DNA of 62,857 bases from positions 1-62,857 of IMG/VR virus record IMGVR_UViG_3300024308_000007; one strand, given 5' to 3'. This DNA comes from a virus. A program made the position numbers and the translations under genes. The notes beneath the pieces were generated by a model that searched no databases, was not told the origin of the DNA, and saw only the letters and a program-made list of their open reading frames with translations. This document shows positions 7,479-36,286 of the stretch, in pieces. Each line of letters starts with the position of its first letter. The stretch's first letter is position 1.

Positions 7479-7508
7479 AAAATACACCACCGTTGATTCG
7501 CATGTCAA
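7479..7508 (-). promoter_or_regulatory. Sigma70-type promoter, TTGACATGC class
   Basis: On the minus strand TTGACA (7503-7508) and TATTTT (7479-7484) are 18 bp apart. The spacer contains CGGTGGTGT immediately before the -10. The same words in the same positions recur at 10396-10425. It drives the gene at 7443 and those downstream of it. Confidence 0.75.
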
Positions 7509-10395: not shown

Positions 10396-10425
10396 AAATT
10401 ACACCACCGTTCGATTGCATGTCAA
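10396..10425 (-). promoter_or_regulatory. Sigma70-type promoter, TTGACATGC class
   Basis: Minus-strand TTGACA (10420-10425) and TAATTT (10396-10401) with 18 bp between. The first nine bases TTGACATGC and the CGGTGGTGTA before the -10 are shared with 7479-7508, although the flanking genes are unrelated. Drives the gene at 10365. Confidence 0.75.
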
Positions 10426-12336: not shown

Positions 12337-12693
12337 TTATCTTCCTTCGTGGCGCGCCAGGATTCCTTCGATGTCCGTGTGGCGGATGTCGTGGGTGATG
12401 CGGCGCAGGTTGTCGATAGCGGACGACAGGTCGCCCAGTTGTCGGAACAGGTATTCGGAGATGATTTCCTGGCGGCTCGGCGACAGGTTGGTGTCGTTGA
12501 TCACTTCAACGGCCGTTTCGATGGTATGGCGCATCTCCTTTTCAAGCGCGAATACCGCGTTTTCCGCGGCTTTCGGTGTGTCTTTTACGCCCAGCAGCAT
12601 CACGCGGCAGATGTCGAATATCCGGCGCGTATCTTCAATGCTGTCGAACTCCGGCTGTTCAGGGGCCGGCACCATGCGGGCGAGGTCAGACAT
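12337..12693 (-). CDS. Hypothetical helical protein (118 aa)
   Basis: Almost fully helical (TRRIFDICRVMLLGVKDTP, then YLFRQLGDLSSAIDNLRRI). One base separates its stop from the RdgC-like gene, suggesting joint expression. Function unknown. Confidence 0.65.
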   Translation of the reverse strand: MSDLARMVPAPEQPEFDSIEDTRRIFDICRVMLLGVKDTPKAAENAVFALEKEMRHTIETAVEVINDTNLSPSRQEIISEYLFRQLGDLSSAIDNLRRITHDIRHTDIEGILARHEGR

Positions 12694-13105
12694 TCTTTTT
12701 GTCCTTCAACGGCGCCACGTTGTAGCTGGTGGTGTGCGCGTCGATTTGAGTGACGGTGATGGCCTGCGCTCCGAACTTCGTGGTGTCCGTTATTTCGCGG
12801 CTGTCGATGGCCAGCGTCTTGCGGCCGCACTTCCACATCACGAAAGCGATCAGGCTGACCTGCATCTGGTCGAACTGTTCTTTCAGGTTGTTTTCCATTT
12901 GTTCCTGAGCCGCTTCCAGCAATTTCAGTTCGCCGTGGGCGGCCGCGTTGGTCGCTTTCAGTTTTTTGATAGCCGGTACTAGTTTTTCCAGGCAGTCAGG
13001 GAACGGCGTGATGTCTCCGCCTCCGGTAAGAATGCCTAATTCCAAAAATGCTTCGGTTAGTACATGCGTCATTTCGCCTAACGCTTGGTGGTTAATTTCA
13101 GACAT
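12686..13105 (-). CDS. Hypothetical protein (139 aa)
   Basis: An N-terminal helical domain, a coiled-coil-like centre (GELKLLEAAQEQMENNLKEQ) and a C-terminal beta segment. Overlaps its neighbours on both sides by a few bases. Function unknown. Confidence 0.65.
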   Translation of the reverse strand: MSEINHQALGEMTHVLTEAFLELGILTGGGDITPFPDCLEKLVPAIKKLKATNAAAHGELKLLEAAQEQMENNLKEQFDQMQVSLIAFVMWKCGRKTLAIDSREITDTTKFGAQAITVTQIDAHTTSYNVAPLKDKKNV

Positions 13106-13428
13106 TATTTGAGCCTCTTAATAATGGCCATTGCGTAAATATGGCCGTTGGCAGTGATGGTGTGGGAAGTCTCGATCGAGAACTCCGCTTCGGCCATGCC
13201 GTTGCGGTTCTTAGCGCCTTTGACACTGGAGTACGCGCCGTCGGACAGTCCCTTCTTAATTGAGGACAAGGAGGACAGGAAGTCCTTATCGACGGCTACG
13301 ATTTTGCTGCAGCATTCCCCGATTTCCAGCGCGGCGATCTGGCTGGTCAGGGATGCGGGCTGTTTACGGGAGCCTTTGGAGACGCCGTCATCCGGCATCT
13401 GCATGGCAATGGAAAGCTGGTCGGTCAT
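13105..13428 (-). CDS. Hypothetical small protein (107 aa)
   Basis: The start ATG at 13428 was chosen because AAGGATC lies 8 bases upstream and a promoter lies just before it; the longer frame would cover that promoter. Ser/Lys-rich, with a C-terminal beta stretch (FSIETSHTITANGHIYAMAI). No family recognised. Confidence 0.65.
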   Translation of the reverse strand: MTDQLSIAMQMPDDGVSKGSRKQPASLTSQIAALEIGECCSKIVAVDKDFLSSLSSIKKGLSDGAYSSVKGAKNRNGMAEAEFSIETSHTITANGHIYAMAIIKRLK

Positions 13429-13444
13429 GATAAGATCCTTTTGG

Positions 13445-13489
13445 CTGTTTGACAGAAAGATAATTACATGCGTTCTTCCTGTCAAACAG
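13445..13489 (-). promoter_or_regulatory. Promoter embedded in an 11-bp perfect inverted repeat
   Basis: The arms CTGTTTGACAG (13445-13455) and CTGTCAAACAG (13479-13489) are perfect complements 23 bp apart. On the minus strand TTGACA (13480-13485) and TATCTT (13457-13462) are 17 bp apart, so one arm covers the -35 and the other lies just beyond the -10. This looks like an operator controlling the genes from 13428 onward. Confidence 0.7.
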
Positions 13490-13502
13490 TTTTTCAAATG
13501 GA

Positions 13503-15857: not shown

Positions 15858-16127
15858 TCAATGCTCCGTCATGAAGTAGACAAACGTGATAACGAACAAA
15901 AATATCACGGTAATGAAGATCAGCGCCAGGTGCGGCAGCGGGTCGTCAAAGTGCGGGTCCAGTTCTCGCTTGAACAATTCGTAATTCTTTTCGCCGTGCT
16001 GGCGACCGTCTTCCCAGGTGTCCGCGAGATCGGTACCCAGGAAAGGGTTGTGTTCGCGCCTTACCCCAATCTCACCGGCAAGGCGCCCTTCCTGGAATAC
16101 TTCGGAACGACGTTCAGGTGTGTGCAT
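15858..16127 (-). CDS. RMF-like (ribosome modulation factor-type) domain with C-terminal TM
   Basis: 89 residues. The segment FQEGRLAGEIGV..EHNPF...DTWEDGRQHGE fits the G-R-xA-xxG-xxxxNPy-xxxxxxW-xxG pattern of ribosome modulation factor and its phage relatives. It is followed by a single C-terminal membrane helix (ALIFITVIFLFVITFVYFM), not present in RMF itself. If the match is right, this would be a membrane-tethered RMF-like protein. It is the first gene after the promoter at 16158-16187. Confidence 0.55.
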   Translation of the reverse strand: MHTPERRSEVFQEGRLAGEIGVRREHNPFLGTDLADTWEDGRQHGEKNYELFKRELDPHFDDPLPHLALIFITVIFLFVITFVYFMTEH

Positions 16128-16157
16128 GGTCTTCCCCTTAGTTGGTATCTAAGATGA

Positions 16158-16187
16158 AAACTAGCACACACCTGTCATGAAGGTCAA
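16158..16187 (-). promoter_or_regulatory. Sigma70-type promoter, TTGACCTT class
   Basis: Minus-strand TTGACC (16182-16187) and TAGTTT (16158-16163), 18 bp apart, with GGTGTGTG just before the -10. The TTGACCTTC start matches promoters at 20361-20390, 20905-20933 and 23599-23627. Confidence 0.65.
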
Positions 16188-20028: not shown

Positions 20029-20331
20029 TTATGCGATACGGATGATTTCTAGGGTGCACACAAACGCGTCTTTATCCCATTTACGTGAACTACTGATCGT
20101 GTACTTCTGGCCGGTCTTCTTACGGGCGTCTGTGACAGAACGACTGTGGCGGCTGCGCAATGCTTGGCTCATTCTAAGCGCGGCATCAATGGCGGACTCC
20201 CCGTTCTCCGGTACCGCTCGTTCTTCCAGGGAAATCACCCCGTTCACCGGCATACGTGCCAGTTGGCTACGAAGGCCGTTGCCTTCTGGCTTCTTAACTG
20301 CTGTTGTGTCTACTGTGATTTTCTTCGGCAT
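20029..20331 (-). CDS. Hypothetical small basic protein (100 aa), first gene of minus operon
   Basis: Basic, with an Ala-rich centre (SAIDAALRMSQALRSRHSRS). The ribosome-binding site AGGAG lies 9 bases before the ATG. It is transcribed first from the promoter at 20361-20390, so it is a likely immediate-early product. Function unknown. Confidence 0.6.
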   Translation of the reverse strand: MPKKITVDTTAVKKPEGNGLRSQLARMPVNGVISLEERAVPENGESAIDAALRMSQALRSRHSRSVTDARKKTGQKYTISSSRKWDKDAFVCTLEIIRIA

Positions 20332-20360: not shown

Positions 20361-20390
20361 ACTATAAACAACACTCGCTGCGAAGGTCAA
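20361..20390 (-). promoter_or_regulatory. Promoter for the long minus operon, TTGACCTT class
   Basis: Minus-strand TTGACC (20385-20390) and TATAGT (20361-20366), 18 bp apart. Begins TTGACCTTCGCAGCGA, nearly the same as the plus-strand promoter at 20905. It drives genes from 20331 leftwards. The leader contains CCACCAGCAAACA, resembling the plus-strand leaders. Confidence 0.75.
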
Positions 20391-20416
20391 CAATAATTCA
20401 CGATTATTTTCTAATC

Positions 20417-20600
20417 GCTAAAAACCACTGGCCAGAATTGCTCCGCTCACGGGGTTGTTGAAGTGATAGGGAGAATTGGTCCGATCGCGCGAGAAAAATT
20501 TCTCCGCTCATGGGGATCTTGAAGTGATAGGGCGCGGGGGAATTGCTAAAAACCGCTGGCCAAAATTGATCCGCTCATGAGGGTTTTGAAGTGACTAAGG
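20417..20600. repeat. Three long direct repeats in the divergent control region
   Basis: Copies at 20417-20471 and 20545-20600 are about 55 bp each; 20502-20532 is a partial copy. Shared blocks are GCTAAAAACC-CTGGCCA-AATTG, CCGCTCA, and TTGAAGTGA. All lie between the divergent promoters in a 656-bp stretch (20332-20987) with no convincing gene. Possible regulatory or replication-related iterons. Confidence 0.75.
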
Positions 20601-20865: not shown

Positions 20866-20895
20866 TTGACCGTCCGCAAAGTTGAAAAATATTTT
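20866..20895 (+). promoter_or_regulatory. Upstream tandem promoter of the rightward early unit
   Basis: TTGACC (20866-20871) and TATTTT (20890-20895) with an 18-bp spacer, located 39 bp upstream of a second promoter. Confidence 0.55.
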
Positions 20896-20904
20896 AATAA
20901 GGTG

Positions 20905-20933
20905 TTGACCTTCGCGGCGGAGGTCATTAATAA
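20905..20933 (+). promoter_or_regulatory. Early rightward promoter with embedded TGACCT/AGGTCA palindrome
   Basis: TTGACC (20905-20910) and TAATAA (20928-20933) with a 17-bp spacer. TGACCT (20906) and AGGTCA (20921) form an inverted repeat that covers the -35 and the spacer. A leader with CACCACCAAACAA precedes the first gene at 20988. The same layout recurs at 23599. Confidence 0.8.
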
Positions 20934-20987
20934 TTAGGCCGCACCACCAAACAACGACACGAAACAACAGATAAACGAGGTAACACG

Positions 20988-21245
20988 ATGGAAAGGATTT
21001 ACAACACGCTGAAAGGGCAACCGCTGCAACATTGGTTGACTATCGCGATCATCCGTGACGAAACCGGATCGGCAACCGTTGAAACGCGCTCAACTATCCA
21101 CGTAGTAAAAGCGCGGCCTCTTTCTCAATCCTGGGGCGCGTCGTTCTCTGATTCTGACATCCTGAACGACAACGATTTATTAAAGGTTGTTTATCAGCGT
21201 TTCGGACGTGAGATTTTCACCGCCGATTATACCCGCAATTTTTAA
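20988..21245 (+). CDS. Hypothetical early protein (85 aa)
   Basis: First gene of the rightward early unit, with CGAGG 10 bases upstream of the ATG. An alpha/beta-looking small protein (HWLTIAIIRDETGSATVETR, then LLKVVYQRFGREIFTADY). No family recognised. Position suggests an immediate-early host-takeover protein. Confidence 0.65.
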   Translation: MERIYNTLKGQPLQHWLTIAIIRDETGSATVETRSTIHVVKARPLSQSWGASFSDSDILNDNDLLKVVYQRFGREIFTADYTRNF

Positions 21246-21262
21246 TTAAAGGGGACCAGAAA

Positions 21263-21808
21263 ATGCAGTCAATCACCACCACGTACACTTTCACGAACGG
21301 CGGACAAGGCCGGATCTTGGTTGAATCATGGCACGGTAAAAAACGCTATAACGCGGATGACGCTTTGAACAGTGAGCAGAATCACCGCCGCGCTGTTCAA
21401 TTGTACATTGACGAAATGAACGAACGCCGCCGCGCTAATCGTCCTGGGGAAAACGTCCCGCCTTTCGAGATCGTCACGTCCGCGCCGCTATCGGGGGAAG
21501 GATGGGCGTTTATGGTCGATTATGCACCGGAGATCGCGCCGTGTCATATGTCTATAACAGTGCGTTTCATGCCTGGAACGAACACCCGCCCCGCTTATAT
21601 GAAAGTTCATTCGTGGTTATTCCCGAAAGGGACGACGGTTAATTATTCACGCGCCACGCAACCAGGGGACGTACAAGGCGCGGCGTTTTATGCGGCGCGG
21701 ATCATGCTGGATATGATCAACGATGAAGTAAAAGACGCCGGAATATCCTATTCCATCCGGGACTATATCCAGACATATAACGGGGATCGCGTTTTCTCTT
21801 TAATCTGA
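21263..21808 (+). CDS. Hypothetical early protein (181 aa)
   Basis: Ribosome-binding site AGGGGA 9 bases before the ATG. N-terminal beta stretch (TTYTFTNGGQGRILVESW), a basic helix (LYIDEMNERRRANR), then a beta-rich C-terminal half (CHMSITVRFMPG). No domain recognised. Confidence 0.65.
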   Translation: MQSITTTYTFTNGGQGRILVESWHGKKRYNADDALNSEQNHRRAVQLYIDEMNERRRANRPGENVPPFEIVTSAPLSGEGWAFMVDYAPEIAPCHMSITVRFMPGTNTRPAYMKVHSWLFPKGTTVNYSRATQPGDVQGAAFYAARIMLDMINDEVKDAGISYSIRDYIQTYNGDRVFSLI

Positions 21809-21866
21809 TTTGTTTTATTGCACGACGATAGCCGAAATATACCGACGACATAACGAGGGGTTTACC

Positions 21867-22502
21867 ATGCGTACTATTAACATCGAACTTTTTAAATTCG
21901 CTGAACTGGACGACGCCGCCAAAAAAGCCGCATTAGAAAACGTCCGCGCCGTTTATCTGGATTCATCGGATTTTTGTTTTTCCGAATATCTCGCCAGTTT
22001 AACCGCTTTCGCCGATGACATCGGGATCGCCGTCCGGGGCTATTCTTTCGGCCTGGAAGGCGGCAACGTCGATCTAGATTTAGATGATTTGTCCGCCGAA
22101 TATAAAAGCGGCGCCCGCCTTTACGCGTGGATCGTGAATAACGTTAAAGGGCTGCAACCCGGCCCGCGCGTTTACCGTGTTGAGCGCGACACCGTGCGCC
22201 ATGGTTTCAAACAACGTGAAAGAATCGTTAAACGTGTTAGCCGTATCTATTCGGGGGATGACTGCTGCAATTATACCGGCGTTTTCTGTGACGAATCTTT
22301 ATTAACGCCTTTCCGCGAATTCCTGAAAGCGCCAACGGATGAAACCTGTTTAGGCGACCTGGTGCGCGCGGCTGTCGATTCCTTTTGCGCTGATATACTG
22401 GCAGAACTGGAACACCAGGAAAGCGACGAATATGCGCAAGAATGGATCGAGAATAAAGGCGATGAAATCGAATTCACCGCAAACGGAAAAATTTACGGAT
22501 AA
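21867..22502 (+). CDS. 'Antitoxin of TA stability system'-like phage protein
   Basis: 211 residues from the ATG at 21867, which follows GAGGGG; the ATG at 21810 has no such site. The start INIELFKFAELDDAAKKAALENVR follows the 'y.F.ELse.AKe.Al...' pattern of a widespread phage/plasmid family often annotated as an antitoxin stability protein. The name reflects databases, and the real role is unknown. No toxin partner is visible next to it. Confidence 0.55.
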   Translation: MRTINIELFKFAELDDAAKKAALENVRAVYLDSSDFCFSEYLASLTAFADDIGIAVRGYSFGLEGGNVDLDLDDLSAEYKSGARLYAWIVNNVKGLQPGPRVYRVERDTVRHGFKQRERIVKRVSRIYSGDDCCNYTGVFCDESLLTPFREFLKAPTDETCLGDLVRAAVDSFCADILAELEHQESDEYAQEWIENKGDEIEFTANGKIYG

Positions 22503-22512
22503 GGGGATCATC

Positions 22513-22803
22513 ATGACTATTAAAATTTTAACGGCTGAATCTATCGCCGTGATCTCTTTTTGGGAATTGAACGACGCGCAACAGGCTGAACAGTTGGAAA
22601 CTTTCGGCAGTGACGCGGAAGACGGCAATTATTTTATTTATGCCGATCAGGTTTACGCAATGGCGGATTGTATGCGCGAAGAATCGCACACGGAAGCGGG
22701 CGCGGCGGGCTGGAATGGGTCATTTAGTGAAACGGCGTTTTCCCGTCTCCTGGTGCGCCTGGTGGATGATAACGAGGCTGTTTTACTGGGGCGCGAATCA
22801 TGA
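22513..22803 (+). CDS. Hypothetical acidic early protein (96 aa)
   Basis: The ATG at 22513 follows AAGGGGATC. The segment ISFWELNDAQQAEQLETFG echoes the ELxDxAKxxAL start of the previous protein, so it may be a shortened relative. Overlaps the next start (ATGA). Confidence 0.6.
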   Translation: MTIKILTAESIAVISFWELNDAQQAEQLETFGSDAEDGNYFIYADQVYAMADCMREESHTEAGAAGWNGSFSETAFSRLLVRLVDDNEAVLLGRES

Positions 22804-22991
22804 TTAAAGAAAATGATATTGTCCACGAAAACGGGAAATATTGGGTTATGCGAAACCGTAAAGATCGCTGTTATTCGGTTATGGTTTCCGGCGCAACTCA
22901 TTCTGTTAGCGATAGCCATTATTCCATGGACGACGACGGGCTATCCATTGCCGTCGCCCGTTGTGATTATCTTGCGAGGCCGAAAAAATGA
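22800..22991 (+). CDS. Hypothetical small early protein (63 aa)
   Basis: Begins in an ATGA overlap and ends in another. A beta-rich small domain (DIVHENGKYWVMRNRKDRCY). Function unknown. Confidence 0.6.
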   Translation: MIKENDIVHENGKYWVMRNRKDRCYSVMVSGATHSVSDSHYSMDDDGLSIAVARCDYLARPKK

Positions 22992-23188
22992 TCCTTTTAT
23001 TCATCCTGGCCGGATATGCCTTTATCGGCTTTTACGTGGGGCGTGATTTGCTGGCGGTGCATCGCCGTTGCCGTGTCGAATTCCGGCAATGTTTCGGCAA
23101 GCGGAAAATATATTTACGTGAACGTAAGACCGGACGTCTGATCGGCTGTTCAAACAATCCATTTACTTTAATTTTGCAGGTTGCCTAA
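22988..23188 (+). CDS. Small membrane protein (66 aa)
   Basis: N-terminal TM helix (MILLFILAGYAFIGFYVG) followed by a very basic cytoplasmic tail (RRCRVEFRQCFGKRKIYLRE). ATGA overlap with the previous gene. One of three consecutive small membrane proteins (22988, 23190, 23369). Function unknown; inner-membrane interference is one option. Confidence 0.6.
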   Translation: MILLFILAGYAFIGFYVGRDLLAVHRRCRVEFRQCFGKRKIYLRERKTGRLIGCSNNPFTLILQVA

Positions 23189-23189
23189 T

Positions 23190-23366
23190 ATGCCTTATAT
23201 CCGCGCCCTGGTCGCGCTAATCGTTGTCTTATTCGCGTTTGCCGTGATCTATAACTTGCCTTATCCGTATCTTTCGCCGCGCTGGTTTTTCACGGCGGCG
23301 GGCGTCGCTTTCATCGCGGCGGCCTTTGTGGGCTTTATTCTTCCCGATAACAAAAAAGGCGGCTGA
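23190..23366 (+). CDS. Small two-TM membrane protein (58 aa)
   Basis: From the ATG at 23190 (an in-frame TTG lies at 23181). Two membrane segments (ALVALIVVLFAFAVIYNL and FFTAAGVAFIAAAFVGFIL) with a short loop and a basic tail. A hairpin membrane protein of unknown role. Confidence 0.6.
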   Translation: MPYIRALVALIVVLFAFAVIYNLPYPYLSPRWFFTAAGVAFIAAAFVGFILPDNKKGG

Positions 23367-23368
23367 TC

Positions 23369-23500
23369 ATGATTAACCTCAAAGATACGGCGGAAGTGGT
23401 GATCCCGGTCCTGGTCCTGGCGGGGCTTCTCCTGGCGGTGTCGCTGGACTTTAAGCGCCGTTTACGCGCCGCTGGTAAAAAGTTTAAAAACAGACGCTGA
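23369..23500 (+). CDS. Small single-TM protein (43 aa)
   Basis: The ATG at 23369 follows GGCGGCTGATC, and the frame ends at TGA 23498-23500, just before the terminator. The sequence is a short acidic start, a TM segment (VVIPVLVLAGLLLAVSL), then a very basic tail (KRRLRAAGKKFKNRR). It completes the run of three small membrane proteins. Confidence 0.55.
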   Translation: MINLKDTAEVVIPVLVLAGLLLAVSLDFKRRLRAAGKKFKNRR

Positions 23501-23533
23501 TCACAAAATTCGCATAACGCGAAAAATAGTTTA

Positions 23534-23574
23534 AGGCCGCGATCCCTTGTGCTGTAAGGGGTTGCGGCCTTTGT
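23534..23574 (+). terminator. Terminator between the two early rightward cassettes
   Basis: A 15-bp stem with two G-U pairs (23534-23548 with 23556-23570) and a 7-base loop, followed by TTTG. The U-tract is short. It sits right before the second promoter. Confidence 0.7.
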
Positions 23575-23598
23575 TCGTCTGGCTTCCGTGAAATAGTG

Positions 23599-23627
23599 TT
23601 GACCTTTGCCGCGAAGGTCACTATATT
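23599..23627 (+). promoter_or_regulatory. Second early rightward promoter with TGACCTT/AAGGTCA palindrome
   Basis: TTGACC (23599-23604), 17-bp spacer, TATATT (23622-23627). TGACCTT and AAGGTCA form a 7-bp inverted repeat separated by 7 bases over the -35 and spacer. The leader repeats the GCACCACCAAACA...CGAAAC...ACGAGG layout seen before 20988. Confidence 0.85.
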
Positions 23628-23681
23628 GGCATTGCACCACCAAACAAAAACATCGAAACGCACCAACGAGGATAAACAATC

Positions 23682-23981
23682 ATGAGTAAATCAGCACTGA
23701 AAGCCCTGGCAAACGCGGACGACAACGAAAGCGCGGCAATCTGCAACCTTTGCGCAAGCCTGATCGTTAATGACGACGCTACCGGATTCGATTATTCGGA
23801 CGACGGCGAAAAACGCGAAAAGAACGCGCGGATCGGGATCGCGTCGTGGCGGGCTGAATGGTTGACGTTAGCCGTTGATCTGGATAATGCAGAAAACGGC
23901 GTCTCTTTCGGTTGTGAATGTTGCGGCGCGCGTGTTCACGGCTGGCGCGGTCGCGTAGTTTTCGCCAACTTTCGTAATTAA
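23682..23981 (+). CDS. Hypothetical zinc-binding early protein (99 aa)
   Basis: First gene behind the second early promoter; CGAGGAT precedes the ATG. Contains CNLC (residues 20-23) and CECCGARVHGW near residue 76, two Cys pairs that could bind zinc. Function unknown. Confidence 0.65.
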   Translation: MSKSALKALANADDNESAAICNLCASLIVNDDATGFDYSDDGEKREKNARIGIASWRAEWLTLAVDLDNAENGVSFGCECCGARVHGWRGRVVFANFRN

Positions 23982-35710: not shown

Positions 35711-36286
35711 ATGGCAAACAAAGACCTCAAAGAGATCAAGAACGCCGGCCCCGACGAGAAAACGAGGTCGATGATTCATGAGGGGTGTTCAATATCCCAA
35801 CTGGCTGACATCTTCGACCGTGATCGCCGCACGGTGACGAAGTACATTCACGATGCGGGGGTGAAACCTTGTGCGACAAGAAACGGAAATCCCATCTACA
35901 AACTGCGAGACGTCGCTGGCTATCTCTGCGACATCGATCCGGACTTCATCGACCAGCGCATCCGCAACCTGAACCCACAGGATCTTCCGCCGCTGCTGTC
36001 GAAGGAATACTGGAACGGAAAGCGAGCGCGACTGACGTATCTGCGTGAAGAGGGCGACCTGTGGGAGACGTCGCAGATTCAGATGCTGCTGGGCGTGTGG
36101 GTGAAGAACTTCGTCACCGGCGTCCGCCAGGTTCAGGACACCATCGACCGCCGCGAAATCCTGACGGAGACGCAGCGAGAAGCGCTGGTACAGGAGATGG
36201 ACAGCCTGATCAACATGACCCGCGAAACACTGGCCAACGCCATTCAGCGCGCGAAGGATACGGCAGATGAAGACGACCTACTCTAA
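35711..36286 (+). CDS. Terminase small subunit (Nu1-like)
   Basis: 191 residues. The N-terminal winged HTH (ISQLADIFDRDRRTVTKYIH, about residues 28-47) is in the place of lambda Nu1's DNA-binding domain, and a helical C-terminal half would bind the large subunit. It ends TADEDDLL, the shared acidic tail. It recognises packaging DNA and overlaps the large subunit start by 20 bases. Confidence 0.85.
   Translation: MANKDLKEIKNAGPDEKTRSMIHEGCSISQLADIFDRDRRTVTKYIHDAGVKPCATRNGNPIYKLRDVAGYLCDIDPDFIDQRIRNLNPQDLPPLLSKEYWNGKRARLTYLREEGDLWETSQIQMLLGVWVKNFVTGVRQVQDTIDRREILTETQREALVQEMDSLINMTRETLANAIQRAKDTADEDDLL

Follow-up and report, generated by a model that had tools for sequence, protein, structure and literature searches.

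Several described systems come close to the arrangement considered here. The Cro and CI operators of bacteriophage lambda are symmetric and overlap early promoters on each flank of a divergent control region, with the regulator gene behind one of them. The stoperators of mycobacteriophage L5 are sites for one regulator that are scattered over the genome and differ between related phages, and in promoters of the MerR/CueR type a dyad beginning with the -35 TTGACCTT lies between -35 and -10 elements spaced 19-20 nucleotides (nt) apart. The subject of this report is a set of promoters with palindromic spacers in IMG/VR virus record IMGVR_UViG_3300024308_000007 (62,857 nt, taken whole and referred to below as the window), a phage genome of the family Casjensviridae near Gwanakrovirus. 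Three of them, termed L, A and B, appear to be sigma-70 promoters that each carry a symmetric operator, and on balance it is probable, as judged from the sequence, that this operator is bound by a phage-encoded protein, most likely of the DUF7609 family, in an autoregulated shut-off of early transcription.

The sequence-only reading of the window had described a duplicated cassette, with promoters at 20905 and 23599 that share TTGACC-N17 and an inverted repeat over the -35 box and spacer. Both promoters (A and B) are present, and the best form of the dyad common to them spans 21 base pairs (bp), TGACCTTCG-NNN-CGAAGGTCA. A scan of the window for TTGACCTT-N7-AAGGTCA with no more than three mismatches gave six strand-matches, four of which are the two palindromes read on both strands, against a mean of 1.04 in 100 dinucleotide shuffles, none of which reached six; TTGACC alone is found at the chance level (31 occurrences, 31.2 expected). 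The claim of duplication thus stands as regards a repeated element and fails as regards the number of copies. There are three sites of this type (class I), and the third, promoter L, which had been missed, drives the leftward operon. Because this divergent copy fronts the leftward operon, the early regulon has at least three sites, and 'duplicated' is better read as a shared element that is kept alike within each genome. The sites are as follows.

20905-20934, plus strand: promoter A, with -35 TTGACC at 20905-20910 and -10 TAATAA at 20928-20933 or, with N18, AATAAT at 20929-20934.
20906-20926, unstranded: operator A, 21-bp dyad TGACCTTCG-CGG-CGGAGGTCA, kept in all five Gwanakro-type genomes (see below).
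23599-23627, plus strand: promoter B, TTGACC-N17-TATATT.
23600-23620, unstranded: operator B, 21-bp dyad TGACCTTTG-CCG-CGAAGGTCA.
20361-20390, minus strand: promoter L, with TTGACC at 20390-20385 and -10 TATAGT at 20366-20361.
20369-20389, unstranded: operator L, TGACCTTCG-CAG-CGAGTGTTG, with a good left half and a degenerate right half.
16155-16187, minus strand: weak class I site, possibly a fourth, TTGACCTTCATGACAGGTGTG, 5' of the gene at 15858-16127.

Each of L, A and B matches the sigma-70 -35 and -10 hexamers at 10 of 12 bases with a spacing of 17-18 nt, so that hexamers 16-18 nt apart near a gene start are found at all three. In a repeat search, L and A together emerged as a 33-nt inverted pair (76% complementary). 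The nearest named relative of the window is Erwinia phage pEp_SNUABM_08 (Gwanakrovirus, Casjensviridae), which matches a 4-kb query with 79.8% identity over 65% of its length and has the same L/A/B layout; this DNA similarity and the shared gene order place the window among the Gwanakrovirus-like phages. Three further Gwanakro-like genomes were present in IMG/VR, giving a set of five (the window, SNUABM08, IMGa, IMGb and IMGc). In all five the early region is divergent, with L reading into the leftward operon, A into the rightward operon and B into a second rightward block. Lack of conservation of the palindrome in relatives had been set beforehand as one observation that would refute the reading; the comparison did not refute it, as the L, A and B promoters with their dyads are kept in five of five Gwanakro-type genomes and a dyad in the same register is found family-wide. 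A further TTGACC at 20866, 5' of A, was rejected as a real promoter, being unconserved in the relatives.

Operator B of IMG/VR record 3300011885_000001 (L005 and L180; near 1645-1665 in L180) is the exact 21-bp reverse complement of window operator B (23600-23620), and the flanks are nearly identical in the two. A site that can be reversed with no apparent loss is what would be expected of a two-fold symmetric binding site; the flip could also arise without selection, by flipping of the palindrome at replication.

The register of the dyad extends beyond the Gwanakro-type phages. Promoters followed by a start codon were gathered from 13 Casjensviridae genomes, namely the five above and eight others (Chi, Enc34, JC01, Saba, PibeRecoleta, MAG26fr, XAP3 and JS26). 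The dyad symmetry of promoter-proximal TTGAC sites in the eight peaks at position 12 from the first T of the -35 box, with 2.9 of 5 pairs at 50 sites (1.32 +/- 0.14 when shuffled; largest of 2000 nulls 1.78), and at the same centre the Gwanakro-type sites give 2.0 (1.20 +/- 0.16; largest null 1.70); since the sites are related by descent, the permutation p-values overstate their independence and the peak shows a pattern, not independent origins. Kokobelvirus (Kokobel1) and Lavrentievavirus (pPM_01), two genera held out when the register was defined, have recurring ACC...GGT dyads centred at 11-12, including one in front of the DUF7609 gene. Promoters of one genome have their half-sites in common, and the spelling varies with the genus: ACACG in Chi, Enc34, Redjac-type, Yonseivirus and Zhonglingvirus phages, ACACT in JC01, roughly ACCCCG in Saba, CTTCG in the Gwanakro-type phages and ACTCG 5' of JS26 gp15. 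In whole-genome scans each ACACG-type genome had 3-7 well-matched sites, and promoter sites of the CTTCG type were essentially confined to Gwanakro-type genomes. Scans of IMG/VR for exact dyad patterns returned mostly unrelated chance matches and are not used as evidence.

These half-sites bear on whether the dyad could be bound by a host transcription factor, for example of the MerR/CueR type, whose operators also begin with TTGACCTT. The one point in favour of such a factor is the likeness of TTGACCTT...AAGG to CueR-type promoters; the spacers here are 17-18 nt as against 19-20 nt, so that a central dyad in a spacer of MerR/CueR length is not found, and no MerR protein was found in the scanned phage genes. 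Moreover, Redjac and Kokobel1 both infect Providencia stuartii and differ in their half-sites, which argues against a host binder and favours a phage-encoded one. A host factor is accordingly regarded as highly improbable.

Among the phage products, DUF7609 is the best candidate for the binder and would most likely be an autoregulated repressor of the early promoters. The window encodes two such proteins.

20029-20331, minus strand: candidate regulator, a diverged DUF7609/phrog_6647 protein of 100 amino acids (aa), the first leftward gene, behind promoter L.
13105-13428, minus strand: second DUF7609 protein, 107 aa (73.5 bits, E 1.8e-20).

The second protein is above the DUF7609 (PF24582) gathering cut-off of 27 bits, as are the orthologues of the first in genomes G001 and G002 (28.3 and 27.6 bits). 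Across the family, the first leftward gene behind L or its equivalent is DUF7609/phrog_6647. The family was detected in 19 of 20 records, the miss being a partial genome, and in all six of a second set, some of whose records also belong to the first, and its genes lie behind dyad promoters. In addition, the Gwanakro-type and JS26 genomes, which have two DUF7609 genes, also have two operator classes, whereas genomes with a single copy have essentially one.

The second operator class (class II) lies in the left operon of the window, at the following promoters.

13457-13485, minus strand: promoter of the second DUF7609 gene, right half-site CGCATG in register.
10397-10425, minus strand: left-operon internal promoter, class II half-site CATGCA (CATGCG in three of four relatives).
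7479-7508, minus strand: left-operon internal promoter, class II half-site CATGCG.

In the five Gwanakro-type genomes the promoter of the second DUF7609 gene has CGCATG at positions 14-19, the exact mirror of the CATGCG found at positions 5-10 in the two other left-operon promoters, where CATGCA replaces CATGCG in two of ten instances. Related half-sites (CATGCG, CATGCA, CAGGCG and CTAGCG) are present in the JS26 left operon. It is conceivable, at somewhat less than an even chance, that the DUF7609 proteins are an undescribed group of small DNA-binding repressors with no recognisable helix-turn-helix (HTH), whose specificity would shift with the operators in each lineage while the fixed register is kept, and whose paralogues would split the regulon into an early CTTCG class and a left-operon CATGCG class.

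Some further features of these left-operon promoters were observed. The two internal promoters, at 7508 and 10425 on the minus strand, form a look-alike pair (TTGACATGCRAWC..ACGGTGGTGTAWTTTGT) that five genomes retain. In the window, perfect 10-nt inverted arms, TGTTTGACAG...CTGTCAAACA (13440-13490, minus strand), enclose the promoter of the second DUF7609 gene, and the inner arms, TTGACAG...CTGTCAAACAG, do not vary among five genomes. In JS26 the annotated TTG start of gp28, the second DUF7609 protein (L169:12636-12690), is the -35 box of its own promoter, and the true start is likely to be the ATG at 12690.

Several observations weigh against a DUF7609 repressor acting at symmetric sites, besides the common descent of those sites. 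The 20029-20331 product itself scores 17.6 bits against PF24582, under the cut-off of 27, and its link to the family is made only via relatives. Pfam detected no DNA-binding domain in this candidate and Pfam scans no HTH family in DUF7609 members, so that the HTH of a Cro-like protein is not seen, and a PDB sequence search with the DUF7609 profile gave no match. A partial Mantel test that compared operator distance with DUF7609 distance and took RdgC as control was without signal (-0.14, p 0.73), and co-variation of the two therefore does not exceed what shared ancestry would produce. The right halves are degenerate at several sites (L; operator B of IMGb), the own-promoter site of Saba has one of six pairs at the exact centre, and the JS26 early promoter is a poor match.

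The lack of a recognised DNA-binding domain and the co-variation at the level of the phylogeny also suit a different binder, as does the large number of early proteins of unknown function: the dyads would still act as operators within a phage regulon, with a different phage protein as its regulator and DUF7609 as a conserved first gene that is controlled in the same way. Of the early proteins, phrog_3199 is also widespread but was rejected as the regulator, being absent from Enc34 and Saba, where the dyads persist. Scans of non-structural genes of the window turned up no known regulator domain, and weak HTH matches were seen solely in a terminase-like DUF1441 protein (35711-36286) that is probably the small terminase subunit; the 'DNA binding protein' annotations of MAG26fr_orf005 and XAP3_0069 have no Pfam support. 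The agreement between DUF7609 copy number and the number of operator classes likewise speaks against another binder, which we consider unlikely.

The sequence-only reading had also assigned to both promoters a common leader with CGAAAC and ACGAGG, placed before unrelated genes, and had proposed that the palindrome is the operator that puts these early groups under one regulator. All the leader motifs occur in both leaders, and the first genes behind A and B are indeed unrelated.

20941-20987, plus strand: leader A, GCACCACCAAACAA ... CGAAAC ... ACGAGG.
23634-23681, plus strand: leader B, GCACCACCAAACAA ... CGAAAC ... ACGAGG.
20988-21245, plus strand: first gene of operon A, DUF7300/phrog_4445, function unknown; SNUABM08 has a different gene here.
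23682-23981, plus strand: first gene of operon B, 99 aa, function unknown.
About 23535-23573, plus strand: terminator-like hairpin, GGCCGC...GCGGCC and then T-rich, between operon A and promoter B.

The hairpin before promoter B is kept in five genomes. The 14-nt leader core GCACCACCAAACAA has exact matches in the window only at 20941 and 23634, the L leader carries the variant CCACCAGCAAACAGG, and the distance from -35 to start codon is 83 nt in A and in B alike. The leaders of A and B are alike within a genome (z 2.2 to 17.8 relative to shuffles, weakest in XAP3), whereas between genera leader scores are near background (mean 5.45). The leader is thus genus-specific and probably separable from the operator; of the earlier proposal, a repeated regulatory cassette whose operator-like palindrome would place early gene groups under one regulator is supported. 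No stable RNA fold was predicted for the window leaders, and the A leader of Chi gives a somewhat better fold than shuffled sequences; the common element is therefore not a conserved RNA structure. No Rfam family was found in the window. The early leaders of Chi (L170:24202-24266 and L170:26837-26900) and JS26 (L169:6318-6400) have a hairpin-like CCCTTCGGGG in common, despite belonging to different genera.

Behind A lies a gene of 85 aa in the window and IMGc, and one of 151-153 aa in SNUABM08, IMGa and IMGb, with the promoter-leader unchanged. Since the first gene has been swapped while the promoter-leader stayed, these blocks may double as recombination joints. Taken further, this exchange and the likeness of A and B leaders within genomes could mean that the blocks are mainly homologous docking sites for early cassettes and that the palindrome is a by-product of their likeness. 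Recombination alone would leave dyad symmetry and a fixed register across genera with unlike leaders unexplained, and we hold this to be very unlikely as the main function; cassette exchange may take place at the blocks in addition.

Between promoters L and A there are three 54-nt direct repeats (20413-20594) with the core TCCGCTCATGGGG..TTGAAGTGA. Repeat arrays that differ from it in sequence stand at this position in SNUABM08, Chi, JS26 and PibeRecoleta, and the array may be an origin of replication or another control region.

For the proposed DUF7609 repressor, the sequence directly shows the promoters and dyads with their fixed register, conservation and positions, and the presence and copy number of the gene; from these we infer that the dyads are bound and by which protein, that the effect is repression and not activation, and when it would occur in the window phage. 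Given their good sigma-70 boxes, L, A and B should fire on phage entry, when host RNA polymerase would use them. One operator copy is centred in the -35/-10 spacer of each, and a protein bound inside that spacer usually blocks polymerase. The product of the first leftward gene (20029-20331), made from promoter L, would be that protein; as it accumulates it would repress L and turn off the right-hand early operons behind A and B. The left-operon operator class appears to be served, in Gwanakro-type phages and JS26, by the second DUF7609 protein.

Transcription in a related phage offers a comparison. In RNA sequencing (RNA-seq) of Serratia phage JS26 the right cluster is expressed early, at 5 min, and the left cluster, led by DUF7609, is mid, at 20 min (PMC8754663); the paper gives timing only, and the sections consulted name no operator or regulator. 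By homology, the right cluster of the window would be early (PMC8754663), and the JS26 timing fits a shut-off of the early promoters once the left cluster is on. The mid rather than early onset of the JS26 left cluster is a further point against the proposal, since one protein that simply repressed L, A and B would not account for it. On this account a role as activator or dual switch, by which the left and right promoters would be used at different times, is kept as an alternative. The -35 and -10 boxes are already near consensus at 17-18 nt spacing and the dyad lies within the spacer, and an activating role is judged distinctly improbable, somewhat more so than a different phage binder.

A symmetric operator on phage early promoters is an already known kind of element. 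No published promoter/operator map for Casjensviridae and no paper naming DUF7609 was found in the literature searched, which covered few subscription papers; measured against it, the Casjensviridae regulon, its register, which stays fixed while the half-sites change, and the suggestion that DUF7609 is the regulator are new. Chi-like phages are widely sequenced and are used against Salmonella, Klebsiella and Erwinia, and no transcriptional regulator was described for them in the literature searched. The present analysis points to a testable early switch and gives DUF7609, a family of unknown function, a probable one. The several half-site spellings in one geometry also offer a natural regulator-operator series, in which a regulator and its multiple operators would have changed together.

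Set beside the systems described at the outset, the locus shares with lambda the symmetric operators over early promoters, seen at L, A and B, with the candidate regulator behind L and so under its own operator. It differs in having one operator per promoter, not three, in a candidate with no detectable HTH and in the recurrence of sites at further left-operon promoters; moreover, phages of this kind are described as lytic, and for a Chivirus neither a CI-like repressor nor an integrase is reported (PMC12671086). As with the L5 stoperators, the sites of what would be one regulator recur in the genome and differ between related phages, but here they are symmetric, 3-7 in number and confined, in one fixed register, to the spacers of promoters. 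The MerR/CueR promoters share the position of the dyad and its start with the -35 TTGACCTT, and differ in half-site spacing as well as in spacer length. JS26, finally, is of the same family and layout, and has two DUF7609 genes that lie behind dyad promoters.

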